Below are positions 627 through 18,799 of a DNA stretch of 64,000 nucleotides, one piece after another. Both the position numbers and the translations under genes were made by a program. Source of the stretch: Alphaproteobacteria bacterium. GTDB taxonomy: Bacteria; Pseudomonadota; Alphaproteobacteria; Micropepsales; Micropepsaceae. The stretch spans positions 62,001 to 126,000 of the forward strand of contig CANHNJ010000001.1 of the NCBI GenBank assembly GCA_947462105.1. Reading direction: 5' to 3'. The notes beneath the pieces are model-generated. The model did not search any database, was not told the origin of the DNA, and was given only the letters and a program-made list of their open reading frames with translations. Within the stretch, counting starts at the first letter, position 1. Each line of letters opens with the position of its first letter.

Positions 627-1130
627 TCAGGCAGCCGGTATGAACTTCAGCGCCGCGCCATTCATGCAATAGCGCAGGCCGGTGGGCTTGGGCCCGTCAT
701 CGAAGACATGGCCCAGATGCCCGCCACAGCGGCTGCACTGCACTTCCACCCGCACCATGCCGTGGCTGTCATCGCGGTTTTCGATCACCACCGTCTTGGC
801 GATCGGCTGGTAGAAGCTGGGCCAGCCGGTGCCGCTCTCGAACTTGGTCTGGGATGCGAACAGGGGCAGGGCGCAGCCCATGCAGGCGAACACGCCCTTG
901 CGATGCTCCTTCAGCAGCGGGCTGGTGCCGGGATATTCCGTCGAAGCCAGGCGCAGCACTTCATAGGATTCCTTGGGCAGGATTTTCTGCCATTCGGCGG
1001 CAGTTTTGTTCACGGCAAAGGTGGCGGCCAGGGCTTCACCACCGGCGCCGCGCGTCAGCAGGGCGCCGCCGCCAGCCGCCAGGGCGGTGCCGCCCAGCAG
1101 CAGGGTCGTCAAGAACCGGCGTCTATTCAT
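627..1130 (-). CDS. msrB: Peptide methionine-(R)-S-oxide reductase MsrB, Tat-exported
   Basis: This 167-residue protein reduces methionine-R-sulfoxide in proteins. The N-terminus MNRRRFLTTLLLGG with the following Ala/Gly stretch is a twin-arginine signal, so the enzyme probably acts in the periplasm. The mature part has both zinc-binding CxxC pairs (C83/C86 and C132/C135), the substrate-site motif GTGWPSFYQP, the HLGHVF motif and the catalytic cysteine C155 in GLRYCMN, where most MsrB have GxRYCxN. Length after signal removal (about 130 residues) fits the single-domain family. It stands alone. Upstream on the minus strand there is a TATAGT -10-like hexamer but no convincing -35. Confidence 0.95.
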   Translation of the reverse strand: MNRRRFLTTLLLGGTALAAGGGALLTRGAGGEALAATFAVNKTAAEWQKILPKESYEVLRLASTEYPGTSPLLKEHRKGVFACMGCALPLFASQTKFESGTGWPSFYQPIAKTVVIENRDDSHGMVRVEVQCSRCGGHLGHVFDDGPKPTGLRYCMNGAALKFIPAA

Positions 1131-1209
1131 GGTCCGTCTCCATTCCGTGCTGGCACTATACGCGATCTTGTCCCTGTTTGGTTCGTCCGGATGGCGAAAA
1201 AGTTACATG

Positions 1210-11230: not shown

Positions 11231-11860
11231 ATGGCGATAGACGTGCGTGAACTTCTGGACGATGGCGGCATGACCCCCGATGCCGATCCCATTGCCCTGT
11301 TCCGGGACTGGCTGGCCGAGGCTGAAATGTCCGAGCCCAATGACGCCAACGCGATGGCGCTGGCCACCGCCGACGCGTCGGGCCAGCCCAATGTCCGCAT
11401 GGTGCTGCTGAAGGGCGCCGACCGCAACGGCTTCGTCTTCTATTCCAACGCGCAAAGCATCAAGGGCGGCGAGTTGGCGGCCAATCCGCGTGCCGCCGTC
11501 AACTTCCACTGGAAGAGCCTGCGCAAGGCGGTGCGGGTGCAGGGCAATATCCGCGAAGTGACGGCGCTGGAAGCCGACACCTATTTCGCCAGCCGCCCGA
11601 AAGACAGCCAGATCGGCGCCTGGGCCTCGGATCAGTCGCGTCCGATGGAAGGGCGGTTCGTGTTTGAAAAGCGCATTGCGGAGTTTGCGCTGAAATTCGG
11701 CTTCGGCACTGTGCCGCGCCCGCCGCACTGGACCGGCTGGCGGCTGGAGCCGTCGCGCATCGAGTTCTGGCGCGACCGGCCCTTCCGCCTGCATGACCGG
11801 CTGGTCTTCAGCCGCGCCCGCGCTGATGCGGCGTGGACGACGGAACGCCTGTTTCCCTGA
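11231..11860 (+). CDS. pdxH: Pyridoxamine/pyridoxine 5'-phosphate oxidase
   Basis: FMN enzyme that makes pyridoxal 5'-phosphate, the cofactor used by threonine synthase and the glycine decarboxylase P-protein encoded in this window. The 209 residues show the family motifs: [23 protein letters not shown], the FMN-binding [32 protein letters not shown] and the C-terminal [18 protein letters not shown] with the terminal ERLFP. No ribosome site of note precedes the ATG. Confidence 0.97.
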
Positions 11861-11891
11861 AAAATTTTGGTCGCAATTAAAGGATCATGCC

Positions 11892-12476
11892 ATGAAGCTC
11901 TATTATTCCCCCGGCGCCTGTTCGCTTGCCGCCCATATCGTCGCCACCGAAGGCGGCCTCAAGCTGGCGCTGGATAAGGTCAATCTGAAGGAGCACAAGA
12001 CCGAAAGCGGTCATGATTTCTATGGCATCAACCCCAAGGGTTATGTCCCGGCGCTGATGCTGGAGAATGGCGAGCTGCTGACCGAGAATGTCGCGCTGCT
12101 GACCTATCTCGGCGACAAGGCGGGCATGACGCCGGACGGCGAGAAGCGCTACCGCCTGCTGGAATGGCTGGCCTTCATCACGTCCGAAGTCCACAAATCC
12201 TTCTCGCCCTTGTTCCGCAATCCCAGCCCCGAAGTGGCGCAGGCGGCGCGCGAGAAGATTCTCAATCGCCTGGGCTTCATCAACGAGCGGCTGGACGGCG
12301 CGCACCTGATGGGTGCGTCGTTCACCCCGGCCGACGCCTATCTCTATGTCATGCTGCGCTGGGCCGAGAACATGAAGATCGACATTTCCGGCCTGGCCCA
12401 TCTCGACGGCTTCAAGGCGCGCATGGCGGCGCGTCCCAGCGTCCGCGCCGCGCTGACGGCGGAAGGCCTCGCCTAG
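11892..12476 (+). CDS. Glutathione S-transferase, beta class
   Basis: A 194-residue GST that begins MKLYYSPGACSLAAHI; Cys10 in PGACSLA marks the beta class, where Cys rather than Ser or Tyr activates glutathione. The thioredoxin fold includes NPKGYVPALMLENGELLTENVAL with the cis-Pro and the SxE-like glutathione site. An all-alpha C-terminal domain follows. Start ATG at 11892 is chosen over the longer frame because it gives the canonical N-terminus. The stop overlaps the stop of the convergent S46 peptidase (CTAG). Confidence 0.93.
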   Translation: MKLYYSPGACSLAAHIVATEGGLKLALDKVNLKEHKTESGHDFYGINPKGYVPALMLENGELLTENVALLTYLGDKAGMTPDGEKRYRLLEWLAFITSEVHKSFSPLFRNPSPEVAQAAREKILNRLGFINERLDGAHLMGASFTPADAYLYVMLRWAENMKIDISGLAHLDGFKARMAARPSVRAALTAEGLA

Positions 12477-14539
12477 CGCCCGGTCAACTCGCCCACCAGC
12501 GCCCCGTTGCCATACATCTTCTCCAGCGCCTCTGTGATGGCGCTGGTTGCCACCGACACGGCGCGGTTGCTTGCGGGGTCAAAGCCGAAGGCGCCGCCCA
12601 GGCTGTCGATGTTGCCGTCAAAGATCAGGCCGACCACCGCGCCATTGGCGTCGATTACCGGCGAGCCGGAATTGCCGCCGATGATGTCGTTGTCGCTGGT
12701 GAAGTTGAACACCGTGTCGCCATTGACCTTGGACTGGCCGCTTTCCCAGCGCTTGGGCAGGTTGAAGGGGAACTGGCCGGTGGCGCGCGGCCACAGCCCG
12801 GCGAAACGCGTGAACGGCACCACGGTGACGCCGTTGTTTACCCAGCCCGCGACCTTGCCGTAGCTCAGGCGCAGCGAAAAGGTCGCGTCAGGATAGGCGC
12901 TGGTGCCATAGGCGGCGAAGCGGGCGCGGGCGATGCGCTGCTGGGCGCGGTCCACCGGGCCGGTGACGCGTGTCTCCCATTCCTTGCGCACCGCGCGGCT
13001 GGCGGCATCGGTCGCCAGCACATACTGGATCAGCGGATCGTTCGACGCCTTGATGGCCGCCATGCCGCCATCCCACAGCCTGCGCCGCAGGGCGGGATCG
13101 CCCAGGCCGGACTTGGCCAGCCGTGCCGCCAGCACTTCGGGCGAATCTTTTCCCAGGAAGGTCTTGGTCGCGGGCGAGTCCACGGTGAGATATTCGCGCA
13201 GCTTGGACAGCCAGAATTCCAGCGCCGCCTGTTCCAGAACCGGATAGACCGGCGACGGGTCCAGCACCTGCTTTTCCAGCAGCGGCAACTGGCTGTCGGT
13301 ATAGCCGGGCAGGCGCTCGGCATTGGGCTTGGCGCGTTCTTCCGCCGCCCGCACCAGCGCACGGGCATGGGAGAAAAGCTCGGAGCGGAAGCCGCCGCGC
13401 GATTCCTGAATCGTGTAGGCATCATAGAGCGCGCGATAGGCAAGCTGCGCCGTGGCGATTTCGCCCCACCGGTCGCCGATGTCGGCGGCCAGCGTCGGGT
13501 CGGCGGCGACGCGCGCCTTCAGTTCGCTATCGGCCTTGCGCTTGGCGGTGATCAGGGCGGGGTCGACCAGCGCCTTCTGCTGGCCCGACAGCGCCTTGAA
13601 GCTGTTCTCGATACCGAACAGCGTGTCCTCGGCGATGCGGCGGTTCTCGGCGCTCTCGGACGAGAAGCGGATCAGCCGCCCGCGCATCTCCGAATAGAAG
13701 AGCAGGGTGGTGGGCAGCGCCCGGTCGCGCAGCGCCTCCAACTGTTCCGCCGTCAGCAGGCGCTGGGTGGTGCCGGGATTGCCCGCGACAAAGACCGGCT
13801 CGCCCTCCTTCGGCGCGCTGCTGCGCCAGGTCAGATGCGCCGGCGTCGCCATCGCCTGACCGTTCTCGTAGAGCCGCACAAAGGAGAAATCGAGGTCGTA
13901 GCGGGGGAAGTTGAAATTGTCGGGATCGCCGCCGAAGAAGGCGGCCTGCGCTTCCGGCGCCGCCACCAGCCGCACATCGGCATATTTGCGATATTCATAC
14001 AGCTTGTACTGGCCGCCCTGGTACAGCGTGATGACCTGGCAGCGATACTGGGCTTCGCGCCCGGCGCAGCCTTCCTTCTCCACTGCCGCGATCTCGCCAT
14101 CGCGGGCGCGCACGAATTCCTGCCCGGTCTTGGCCAAGCCCGCCTTGATGATGCGGTCGCTGACATCGCCGATGCGGGTGAGGATCTCGGCCTGCATGCC
14201 GGGGCACAGTTTTTCGTTCTCGCGCCGCGCCGCCTGGAAACCATCCTCGATGTAATTGACCTGCGCCGTGGACAGTGCCTGCACACAGTCGCGCACGCAA
14301 TGATGGTTGGTCAGCACCAGGCCGCTGGCCGAAACGACGGAGGCCGAACAGCCCGATGACAGCCGCACCGCCGCGTTCTGCACCCGGGTCAGCCAGGCGG
14401 GCGTGACATCGACATTGTATTTCGTCTTCACGGCGGCGGACGGGAAATTGTCGAAGGTCCACATCCCTTCATCGGCGCGCGCCGCCACGGCCAGCAGCAG
14501 GGCCGGGCCCATCATCAGGGCCATCAATTTCGCGCGCAT
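12473..14539 (-). CDS. S46 family dipeptidyl-peptidase (DPP7/DPP11 type)
   Basis: A 688-residue periplasmic serine exopeptidase that removes dipeptides from peptide N-termini. A signal peptide is followed at once by DEGMWTFDNFP, the start of mature S46 enzymes. The catalytic His is in LVLTNHHCV (79/80) and the nucleophile is S624 in GGNSGSPV. The residue 18 positions after the Ser is Gly (in FDGN); DPP11 enzymes have Arg there for acidic P1 residues, so this looks like the DPP7 hydrophobic-P1 type (inferred). It stands alone, convergent with the GST gene. Confidence 0.93.
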   Translation of the reverse strand: MRAKLMALMMGPALLLAVAARADEGMWTFDNFPSAAVKTKYNVDVTPAWLTRVQNAAVRLSSGCSASVVSASGLVLTNHHCVRDCVQALSTAQVNYIEDGFQAARRENEKLCPGMQAEILTRIGDVSDRIIKAGLAKTGQEFVRARDGEIAAVEKEGCAGREAQYRCQVITLYQGGQYKLYEYRKYADVRLVAAPEAQAAFFGGDPDNFNFPRYDLDFSFVRLYENGQAMATPAHLTWRSSAPKEGEPVFVAGNPGTTQRLLTAEQLEALRDRALPTTLLFYSEMRGRLIRFSSESAENRRIAEDTLFGIENSFKALSGQQKALVDPALITAKRKADSELKARVAADPTLAADIGDRWGEIATAQLAYRALYDAYTIQESRGGFRSELFSHARALVRAAEERAKPNAERLPGYTDSQLPLLEKQVLDPSPVYPVLEQAALEFWLSKLREYLTVDSPATKTFLGKDSPEVLAARLAKSGLGDPALRRRLWDGGMAAIKASNDPLIQYVLATDAASRAVRKEWETRVTGPVDRAQQRIARARFAAYGTSAYPDATFSLRLSYGKVAGWVNNGVTVVPFTRFAGLWPRATGQFPFNLPKRWESGQSKVNGDTVFNFTSDNDIIGGNSGSPVIDANGAVVGLIFDGNIDSLGGAFGFDPASNRAVSVATSAITEALEKMYGNGALVGELTGR

Positions 14540-14608
14540 GTCTGAACCTCAGTCTGAAAAGCAGTCGCAGCCTAGACCGAAATCGCCCGCACGAAAAATC
14601 GGAATTTC

Positions 14609-15508
14609 ATGCTAACAAGCGGCATGGAGAGTCCCGGAAAAGCCGCACTGTTGATGCGCCGCGCCGCTATCGCCTCGGTCTGCGTCGCCGTCACGCTGAC
14701 GCTGCTGAAGGCGGGCGCCTGGTTCACGTCCAACTCGGTGGCGATGCTGGCCTCGATGGCCGATTCCGGCCTCGACCTGCTGGCCTCCGCCGCCAACTAT
14801 GTCGCCATCCGCCAGTCGCTGACGCCCGCCGACCATGAGCACCGCTTCGGCCACGGCAAGGCCGAGCCGCTGGCGGGACTGGGCCAGACCGCCTTCATCA
14901 CGTTCTCCGCCCTGTTCCTGATCCAGCAGTCAATCACGCGCCTGCTGGCGCCCGCCCCGCTGGAAAATTCCGCCGCCGCGCTGGTGGTGATGGGCGTATC
15001 CATCGGTGCGACGGCGGCGCTGGTCTGGTACCAGCACCACGCCATCGTCGCCTCGCGCTCCACCGCCATCCGCGCCGACCGCGCCCATTATGTCGGCGAC
15101 CTGGTTGGCAATATGGCGGTGATATTGGGCATCGCGATGGCGGGCCTGTTCGGCTGGCTGTGGGCTGATCCGGTCTTCGCGCTGGGCGTGGCGGGGATGC
15201 TGCTCTACAGCGCCTTCACGGTGGGCCGCGACAGCCTCGACCAGCTGATGGACCGCGAGCTGCCTGACGATGACCGCAGCCGCATCATCCGCATCGTCGC
15301 GGCGTATCCGCATGTGAAGGGCCTGCGCGATCTCAAGACCCGCATGGCGGGCCTGTCGACCTTCATCCAGGTGAACATCTATCTCGACGGCGCGATGGCG
15401 CTGGAAGAGAGCCACACCGTCACCGATGGGCTGGAACAGGCGCTGGAGAAGGAATTCCCCGGCGCCGAGGTCATCATTCACCAGGAGCCTGCGCCGCAAC
15501 CGGCTTAG
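14609..15508 (+). CDS. Cation diffusion facilitator family metal exporter
   Basis: A 299-residue inner-membrane divalent metal/proton antiporter related to FieF/YiiP. Six transmembrane helices occupy roughly residues 15-205; SMADSGLDLLAS in TM2 supplies Asp for the transport site and the TM5 part has the matching polar residues. HRFGHGKAEPLAGLGQ is the family signature loop, and the C-terminal domain (210-290) is the cytosolic dimerisation domain. An internal ATG at 14624 is an equally possible start. The 3' end overlaps the antiporter remnant on the other strand. Confidence 0.93.
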   Translation: MLTSGMESPGKAALLMRRAAIASVCVAVTLTLLKAGAWFTSNSVAMLASMADSGLDLLASAANYVAIRQSLTPADHEHRFGHGKAEPLAGLGQTAFITFSALFLIQQSITRLLAPAPLENSAAALVVMGVSIGATAALVWYQHHAIVASRSTAIRADRAHYVGDLVGNMAVILGIAMAGLFGWLWADPVFALGVAGMLLYSAFTVGRDSLDQLMDRELPDDDRSRIIRIVAAYPHVKGLRDLKTRMAGLSTFIQVNIYLDGAMALEESHTVTDGLEQALEKEFPGAEVIIHQEPAPQPA

Positions 15509-15728
15509 GCATCCACAGCCTGACATCCTCGATTTCCTGTCCCATGATCCGGAAGCGGCCCACCGCCAGGCCGGTACCGGCGATGACGAAGCTGAACTCG
15601 CCCACCGGCGAGATGATCAGCGAGGTCTTGAGCGCGATCAGGAAGCGCTCGCCCGACAGCATCATCAGCAGCCAGTTGAGGAAGGTCTTGCCGCCCGTCA
15701 CCACCACCAGCGCCGCGCCGATGATCAT
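15474..15728 (-). pseudogene. Remnant of a CPA2-type monovalent cation/proton antiporter
   Basis: The 84-codon frame reads MIIGAALVVVTGGKTFLNWL, then an IALKTSLIISPVGEFSFVIAG segment. The last part resembles the GEFSFV helix of CPA2 (KefB/YbaL-like) antiporters, which are about 380 or more residues long. Only about one sixth of such a gene is present. The frame runs a few codons further upstream inside the truncated sigma gene, and its 3' end lies within the CDF gene, so both ends look like deletion joins. The family call rests on one motif region and is tentative. Confidence 0.5.
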
Positions 15729-16210
15729 GGCGTGCTCGCCTTTATGGCGCTCTCGCTCTGTCCCGTGCGGGCGGCGATGTCGGCGATGCTTATCCCATCC
15801 AGTTTCACGGCGGTGAGCAGCGCGCGCCGCGCCTGTGGCAGCTTGTCCAGCAGCTTGCCGACATCGCGCCGCGCGGTGCGCGCCTCGCTGTCGTCATCGG
15901 CGAAGACTTCATCGTCCAGCGGCACCGAAGCATGGCGCTTGTGACGGCGATAGGCATCCACCAGCTTGTAGCGGGCCAGGCCATGCACCCAGGCGGTCAG
16001 GGGCTGGGCCGCATCATAGGTCGCCCGGCTCTTGTGTATGGCCATCAAGGTTTCCTGCACCGCATCCTCCGCCGCAGTGGCATCCAGCCGCCGCGCGAAA
16101 TAGACCCGCAAGTGTCCGGTCAGCGCCGACAGCAATTGCCGGTATGCGCCGCCATCGCCCGCAAGGGCTGCAACCATCCACGTTCGGTACTGCGCCTCAT
16201 GTGCAATCAC
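15725..16210 (-). pseudogene. ECF sigma factor, cut off in region 4
   Basis: The 161-codon frame has complete region 2 (DATAAEDAVQETLMAIHKSR and PLTAWVHGLARYKLVDAYRR) and most of region 4 (LPQARRALLTAVKLDGISIADIAARTGQSESAIK). The recognition helix normally continues with a segment like VSVHRGLKAL; here it stops after ASTP. The lost end is the part that contacts the -35 box. The type resembles Caulobacter SigF sigma factors, which are followed by an NrsF (DUF1109) membrane anti-sigma gene; none is present here. It may still be transcribed and could give a defective protein. Confidence 0.75.
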
Positions 16211-16225
16211 GCACGTCTCGCTTCA

Positions 16226-16251
16226 CTTCGCGGCAGGGCCCGAAAGGTTAC
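16226..16251 (-). promoter_or_regulatory. SigF-type ECF promoter for the sigma gene (autoregulatory)
   Basis: On the minus strand GTAACC (16251-16246), 15 bases, then CGAAG (16230-16226). This is the same box pair and spacing as the promoter on the plus strand 22 bases away, and resembles the GTAAC/CGAAT-type motif I recall for Caulobacter SigF. The -10 box ends only 16 bases before the sigma start codon, so the leader would be very short. Confidence 0.6.
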
Positions 16252-16272
16252 GGAAGTTTATGCGCGAACAGT

Positions 16273-16298
16273 GTAACCGCAGAATTGGGGCAGCGAAT
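16273..16298 (+). promoter_or_regulatory. SigF-type ECF promoter for the small secreted peptide gene
   Basis: GTAACC (16273-16278), 15 bases, then CGAAT (16294-16298), on the plus strand. The predicted start of transcription is near 16304 and the ribosome site AAGGAG (16315-16320) follows. The match to the minus-strand copy in both boxes and spacing is the evidence; neither box pair was noticed upstream of other genes in the window. Confidence 0.62.
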
Positions 16299-16329: not shown

Positions 16330-16506
16330 ATGAAATCTCTGTTAGGTCTCGCCGTTATCGCCTCGCTCGCCCTGGCCCTGCCGGCTTCTGCCGCCGAAAA
16401 GGCCACCAAGGAGCCGGCCGCCAAGCCTGCCGCCGCGTCTACGATGGCCGCGGCTCCGGCTGCGCCGATGACGCATGCGAAGAAGGAAAAGAAGGTCAAG
16501 CACTAA
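16330..16506 (+). CDS. Small secreted Ala/Lys-rich peptide
   Basis: A 58-residue protein with a clear cleavable signal peptide, MKSLLGLAVIASLALALPASA, followed by a 37-residue low-complexity mature part made almost only of Ala, Lys, Pro, Met and Thr and ending KKEKKVKH. The mature peptide would be strongly basic and periplasmic or released. AAGGAG lies nine bases before the ATG. It diverges from the ECF sigma gene and carries the matching promoter, so it is probably the main target of that sigma factor. No known family was recognised. Confidence 0.7.
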   Translation: MKSLLGLAVIASLALALPASAAEKATKEPAAKPAAASTMAAAPAAPMTHAKKEKKVKH

Positions 16507-18182: not shown

Positions 18183-18799
18183 TACCAGCCCGGTGCGAAG
18201 GCCGGAAACGCCAGCACCAATACTTCGCGGGCGGTGATCACGCCGATGCCGCCACCGATCAGCACATCGGACAGGAAATGCGCCGTCAGCAGCGCGCGCA
18301 CACCCGCCAGGAACGCCGCGAGGCCGAACCATAGCGGCCACAGCATCGGCGTAACGCAGGTCAGGATGACTGCGACACAGAAGATGGTCAGCGCGTGGCC
18401 GGAGGGAAAGGAATTGAAGTTGGTGTTGAAGGCGAAGGGCACGAAGCCATAGAGCCCCATCTCCATGTCGTCGCGCGGGCGGCGGCGGCCCAGCACCAGC
18501 TTGATGACATGCAGCACGGCGCTGCCCACGGTCAGGCTGGCGATGAAAGCCAGGCTATAATTGGCGAGCATCTCCAGTTTTTGCCCTTGCAGGCCGATCT
18601 GCCGCGCCACCGCCGCGACGATCAGCGCCAGCACCGCTGGACCCAGCCAGTGCCCGGCCTTGGCGGCATGGGTGACGCTGTTCAGCCGCTTGTGATTTCT
18701 GGCGCTGACATGATCGTAGAGAAAATGCGCGATCCTGCGGTCAAGCGGCAGGGCGGCGACGCCCAGCACGATCAGAATCCATCCGGCCCATAGCAACAT
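18179..18799 (-). CDS. PAP2 family membrane phosphatase
   Basis: A 206-residue integral membrane protein with five or six hydrophobic segments and the three phosphatase motifs of the type 2 phosphatidic acid phosphatase family: KLVLGRRRPRD, PSGHA and RALLTAHFLSDVLIGG, the latter with His in place for catalysis. Such enzymes dephosphorylate lipid phosphates (undecaprenyl pyrophosphate, phosphatidate, or lipid A phosphates). The substrate cannot be assigned. It lies nine bases downstream of purD in the same direction, probably in one transcript. Confidence 0.88.
   Translation of the reverse strand: MLLWAGWILIVLGVAALPLDRRIAHFLYDHVSARNHKRLNSVTHAAKAGHWLGPAVLALIVAAVARQIGLQGQKLEMLANYSLAFIASLTVGSAVLHVIKLVLGRRRPRDDMEMGLYGFVPFAFNTNFNSFPSGHALTIFCVAVILTCVTPMLWPLWFGLAAFLAGVRALLTAHFLSDVLIGGGIGVITAREVLVLAFPAFAPGWY

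Follow-up and report, generated by a model that had tools for sequence, protein, structure and literature searches.

Introduction

The closest described relatives of the locus analyzed here are the BcrS/AbcS-bcrXQP system of Brucella (PMC8315932), SigF/NrsF of Caulobacter (PMC3511200), EcfF/OsrA of Bradyrhizobium (PMC3420878) and the sigF/nrsF, yedYZ and mrpX genes of perchlorate islands (PMC4623255). In Brucella, a methionine-rich peptide gene stands beside an ECF16 sigma gene with promoter boxes that face each other on opposite strands, the sigma gene is followed by that of an NrsF-family anti-sigma factor, and methionine-sulfoxide repair is among the targets (PMC8315932). The ECF16 consensus given there is (T/C)GTAAC-N17-CGAA, the bcrX and bcrS boxes lie on chromosome II at 18520-18545 (minus strand) and 18584-18609 (plus strand), respectively, and the transcript start of bcrXQP was mapped by 5' RACE (PMC8315932). 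The Caulobacter promoters of sigF and of the CC3254 operon read GTAACC-N16-CGAA, and the gene next to sigF is nrsF, a DUF1109 member (PMC3511200). An ECF16 sigma factor with a DUF1109 anti-sigma factor also controls methionine sulfoxide reductases in Bradyrhizobium, where the system is autoregulated and the published box is GTAAC(g,a) with N14-15 spacing (PMC3420878). The perchlorate islands also pair SigF/NrsF with methionine sulfoxide reductases and a peptide rich in Met; in two of these islands, MsrA and MsrB that are predicted to be exported fall into one functional group with sigF/nrsF and mrpX (PMC4623255). Activity of sigF-type promoters that is independent of that sigma has been reported in both Caulobacter and Brucella (PMC3511200; PMC8315932).

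The window, meaning the whole 64,000-nucleotide stretch of DNA that was analyzed, contains the divergent control region of such an ECF16 (SigF/NrsF) module. Its mirror-image box layout is usual for this sigma group and nothing special, and the design of the module was already known; what the locus holds is the second copy of a familiar type of switch, in a decayed state. It differs from the Brucella system, in which the sigma is intact, by a Met-poor peptide and the loss of nrsF, and the repair system is MsrPQ-like in Brucella, whereas here it comprises a secreted MsrA and a Tat-like MsrB (PMC8315932). The small proteins of Caulobacter belong to DUF2282 and have DUF692/DUF2063 partners, and the spacer is N16 there but 15 in the window (PMC3511200). 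The Bradyrhizobium system is also intact, and the sections that present it describe no Met-rich divergent peptide (PMC3420878), while the perchlorate genes belong to a perchlorate-reduction island for which the relevant sections describe no truncated sigma (PMC4623255). Judged from the sequence, it is likely that the locus is a decayed ECF16 copy whose boxes are now driven by an intact SigF encoded on another contig, C21, of the same genome.

The Divergent Control Region

The two boxes are placed as follows.

16227..16251, minus strand: SigF-type (ECF16) promoter box of the sigma gene, GTAACC-N15-CGAA
16273..16297, plus strand: SigF-type (ECF16) promoter box of the peptide gene, GTAACC-N15-CGAA

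A preliminary description of this DNA had claimed exact GTAACC-N15-CGAA boxes on both strands with their -35 hexamers facing each other 21 bases apart, and the coordinates (16251-16227 and 16273-16297) bear this out. Exact boxes are expected at 0.04 matches per 64-kb window and two were found; among 100 shuffled windows, none held two exact boxes and none a facing pair. Each box is also correctly placed for its own gene, as had been proposed, with 16 bases between the end of the minus-strand box and the sigma start GTG at 16210, and 32 bases between the end of the plus-strand box and the peptide ATG at 16330. In the longer form, the boxes read CGTAAC-N16-CGAA and TGTAAC-N16-CGAA, and they fit the ECF16 promoter type although they are one base shorter than the Brucella consensus.

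Single boxes carry little information genome-wide: the GTAACC-type box has eight matches vs. 17 for the reversed pattern, below the control, and (C/T)GTAAC-N16-17-CGAA has nine vs. 23. The preliminary description had also proposed a genome-wide search for the box pair, which found the facing pattern three times in this genome, at two places that are both sigF loci, with no match for the reversed control. Across 61 genomes the facing pattern has 22 matches, of which 17 lie at sigF-like loci; the reversed control, compared by count and not by position, also gives 22, so the count alone is weak evidence and it is the position that carries the signal.

Conservation was assessed at 21 loci of the genus that encode a close sigma, of which this genome contributes two. 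When up to one mismatch is allowed, a box is present upstream of the sigma gene on the sigma strand at 20 of the 21 loci and on the opposite strand at 17, and two scrambled box controls gave 0/21 on either strand. The view that these are SigF-type promoters in an intact control region is upheld. A spacer of 15 after GTAACY also occurs on the sigma side in five related genomes (G036, G015, G001, G030, and G011); in G015 and G001, the peptide-side box is absent or imperfect and the scan found no divergent peptide gene. NrsF (PF06532) adjoins the sigma in 19/19 other genus genomes that have a close one (E <= 1e-36), and an NrsF/DUF1109 gene after the sigma gene is missing at the window locus but present in the C21 module.

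The Truncated Sigma Factor

Two features on the minus strand meet downstream of the sigma-side box.

15725..16210, minus strand: sigF truncated to 161 aa, with homology up to residue 157 and the cut inside the -35 recognition helix
15474..15728, minus strand: what is left of an antiporter gene, its C-terminal part; ~36-38 codons are missing internally and the 5' part was lost in the deletion

The window protein has sigma domain 2 (Sigma70_r2, E 2.3e-9) and is 66% identical to C21 SigF and 68% to the G036 protein. It lacks a complete domain 4 with the -35 helix: the match of the 161-aa ORF to Pfam Sigma70_r4_2 stops at position 44 of 54 and the helix is cut after K157. The preliminary description was therefore right that the regulator is truncated in its -35-binding helix, and the protein is classed as a remnant and not as a working ECF16 member. 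Predicted models of C21 SigF and the window protein (mean pLDDT 84 and 83, pTM 0.49 and 0.56, respectively) place the last helix at residues 155-178 in C21 SigF and its equivalent at 153-159 in the window protein; the C21 SigF model resembles known ECF sigmas, with E. coli sigma-E (1or7) as the top match at E 2.1e-6. This helix contacts the -35 element in ECF sigmas. With most of this helix gone, the sigma of this locus is expected to have lost the ability to read its own promoters.

The alignment with intact SigF runs to SESAIK (residue 157) and is followed by ASTP and a stop. Read in another frame, the last codons give GEHAMIIGAALVV, matching KQHAFIILAALVV of the G007 antiporter, and the junction passes from sigma DNA into antiporter DNA. 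In G015 the order is rluB, a 73-aa gene, sigF, nrsF, ~4.6 kb of other ORFs, the antiporter and a fieF-like gene, and the points that are joined in the window lie ~6.2 kb apart there. No second antiporter copy was found elsewhere in this genome at E <= 0.001. The comparison shows at the level of the sequence that a deletion has fused the antiporter gene, by its 3' part, to codon 157 of sigF, taking away nrsF and most of the -35 helix.

Beyond the fieF-like gene, the window has ~2.7 kb (11860-14609) with an S46 peptidase gene between that gene and ORF 11231-11860; in G015, the fieF-like gene directly adjoins the homologue of this ORF.

An Intact Second Copy on Contig C21

The preliminary description had suggested that another sigma may have taken over and that a paralogous sigma should be sought. 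The search yielded an intact module on contig C21 that encodes a 180-residue SigF, NrsF (E 7.1e-57) and a divergent Met-rich peptide, with facing boxes of its own (GTAACT-N16-CGAA and GTAACC-N16-CGTA). This NrsF, after C21 sigF, is the single copy in the genome. The recognition helix of C21 SigF, SETAVKVSVHRAIKSL, differs in two conservative residues from the SESAVKVTVHRAIKSL of G036, G015, G001, and G011. The first 8 kb of C21 have a GC content of 0.647, compared with 0.657 for the window, and the listed contamination of the genome is 0.16%. One further ECF was found by the SigF profile in this genome (contig C16, E 7.8e-13), and its helix differs (GTVKSRLRLAM). The takeover idea is thus strengthened by the near-identical recognition helix, and C21 SigF is probably able to read both window boxes. 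The spacers count against this explanation, both being 15 bases long in the window, compared with 16 (counted likewise) in the consensus of Caulobacter and Brucella.

The Divergent Peptide

16330..16506, plus strand: 58-aa secreted-type peptide that corresponds to the MrpX/BcrX-like peptides of relatives but is poor in Met

This peptide has a signal-like start by eye and only three Met in 58 residues, and is not Met-rich, whereas the C21 peptide is, with Met at 19 of the 131 positions that its contig covers. Ten of the 21 loci have a Met-rich secreted-type peptide (C21, G036, G011, G016, G010, G026, G025, G028, G012, and G004, that of G025 being cut by its contig end), examples being those of G036 (15 of 80 residues are Met) and G026 (21 of 137). 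The G030 peptide is of other make-up (4 Met in 130), G003 has an unrelated 237-residue protein in the divergent position, and the scan showed nothing convincing at the remaining genus loci of the 21. Most likely, the window peptide derives from an oxidant sink rich in methionine and is now a copy in decay. Its assignment as a bufferin (DUF2282) was rejected, given that it has no Pfam family and no Cys and that its counterparts in relatives are often Met-rich.

Predicted Regulon

Six of the nine genome-wide matches to YGTAACN16-17CGAA precede window sigF, the window peptide gene, C21 sigF, an AhpC/TSA gene, msrA and msrB; the other three (C1:9901, C7:76351, and C13:1228) have no obvious gene start after them. 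The further features of this predicted regulon, with this genome denoted G000, are given below.

1182..1207, minus strand: SigF-type box upstream of msrB
627..1130, minus strand: Tat-like MsrB (PF01641), predicted regulon member, signal type by eye
G000:C1:60318-60344, plus strand, outside the window: SigF-type box upstream of msrA
C1:60368-61039, outside the window: secreted MsrA, predicted regulon member, signal type by eye
L039 2080-2106 (G000:C21): SigF-type box before the AhpC/TSA gene that follows nrsF

Msr proteins are known ECF16 targets (PMC3420878). Among the listed MsrA and MsrB matches in relatives, a box precedes MsrA in 14/30 loci and MsrB in 16/30, and a wrong-strand control at these loci gave 0/30 for each. 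In G021, G027, and G028, msrA directly follows sigF-nrsF on the same strand. It is likely that the job of the module is the repair and buffering of oxidized methionine in the envelope. An MsrP target was also considered and rejected: inspection by eye shows no signal-like start in the sole PF00174 protein (G000:C14), no obvious membrane partner is listed among the ORFs of its 3.4-kb locus, and contig C14 has no matched box. In G013, an AhpC/TSA homologue (68% identical) adjoins the sigma gene on the opposite strand, at the position that the peptide has in others.

Recurrent Loss of the Sigma in the Genus

The window is not the only place in the genus where sigF has been broken. In G008, beside rluB and the 73-aa gene, ~15-19 codons from the start of the sigma gene are fused in frame to NrsF, an event independent of the one in the window.

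L166 3165-3801 (G008:C17): destroyed syntenic sigF of G008, with the sigma-side box intact

Boxes also stand before msrA and msrB in G008. No SigF or NrsF was found in G014 (100% complete) or G024 (99% complete), where a box precedes msrA (L118 and L107, respectively) and none precedes msrB, and in G035 no SigF was found and neither msrA nor msrB has a box. Among the matches listed (30 loci for each gene), the msrA box is present in 10/19 loci with a close SigF, 0/3 with a weak match and 4/8 with none, the corresponding figures for msrB being 11/17, 3/5, and 2/8. Contrary to expectation, the link of the msrA box to the presence of SigF is weak. Since this box is about equally frequent without a SigF match as with a close SigF, its persistence is no proof that SigF reads it, and from their retention in lineages in which no SigF was found or sigF is broken the boxes seem to outlive the sigma in some lineages. 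The msrA boxes of G014 and G024 may be orphan promoters or may have a second reader. The genus thus offers a natural series, with two different destructions of sigF (G000 and G008) and genomes that have an msrA box but in which no SigF was found (G014 and G024). Such a series is suited to studying the lifetime of promoters after the loss of their sigma and their possible use by another sigma, which the work on Caulobacter and Brucella leaves unanswered (PMC3511200; PMC8315932).

Probable Decay of the Stub and Competing Explanations

The stub has a branch length of 0.40, the longest in its clade (0.18 for C21 and 0-0.25 for the other six), and the tree of the sigmas shows no clear sister grouping of the window and C21 proteins. 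At columns that are invariant in eight close sigmas it departs at 10/82, and intact genes depart from such columns at 9/81 (G013) and 6/78 (G016). Up to the cut, it retains 51/54 of the residues invariant in 11 intact sigmas, and its frame is open over 157 codons. The codon-position difference ratio of the sigma is 0.42-0.49 for the stub vs. 0.25-0.50 for intact pairs, and that of the antiporter piece is 0.32-0.81 vs. 0.23-0.60, mostly raised. The open frame, the retained residues and the intact-like codon pattern together indicate that decay is slight. These data fit a rather recent loss and would also allow some residual function; most likely, the stub is a pseudogene of fairly young age.

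Under the favored explanation, the locus would be an autoregulatory divergent region of an ECF16 oxidative-damage module, between rluB and the fieF-like gene, in which the deletion fused sigF to the antiporter remnant. C21 SigF would then most likely drive both window boxes together with msrA, msrB and the AhpC/TSA gene, and the trigger, by analogy with the known ECF16 mechanism, may be envelope oxidants that inactivate NrsF. An ECF16 switch would thus have lost one of its two copies while the promoters stayed, with one SigF predicted to serve both. It is also conceivable that the boxes are relics that have not yet decayed since the sigma was cut, so that contact with C21 SigF, if it occurs, would have no consequence. 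The apparently young deletion, the now Met-poor peptide and the persistence of boxes at msrA in G014 and G024 and at the sigma promoter of G008 would all suit this, but both window boxes are perfect despite the long branch of the sigma, and a SigF with a near-identical helix is present; we regard it as unlikely. The preliminary description had raised a new role for the shortened protein, which could still work by domain-2-only initiation at the boxes or as a binding decoy for NrsF or RNA polymerase. In one form of this idea the stub, itself incapable of binding -35 elements, would be kept as an oxidant-induced decoy that occupies NrsF and frees C21 SigF, an anti-anti-sigma factor made from a broken paralogue. 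Its intact domain 2, open frame and well-kept invariant residues could be taken to favor a working protein; on the other hand, about one turn is all that remains of the recognition helix, the last residues of the protein come from antiporter DNA read out of frame, its branch is lengthened and no cognate nrsF is left. No support was found for a new role of this deletion product, joined as it is to a remnant of an antiporter gene, and we give little credence to a working protein in general and equally little to the oxidant-induced decoy in particular.

An error of assembly, with the real genome having an intact sigF-nrsF here, appears least probable of all and would be very surprising. The genome is a draft of 41 contigs and the junction is known from the assembly alone, but the genome holds neither another antiporter copy (at the threshold given above) nor a second NrsF, the joined antiporter piece has its further internal gap, and the outer genes are collinear with those of G015 on both sides.
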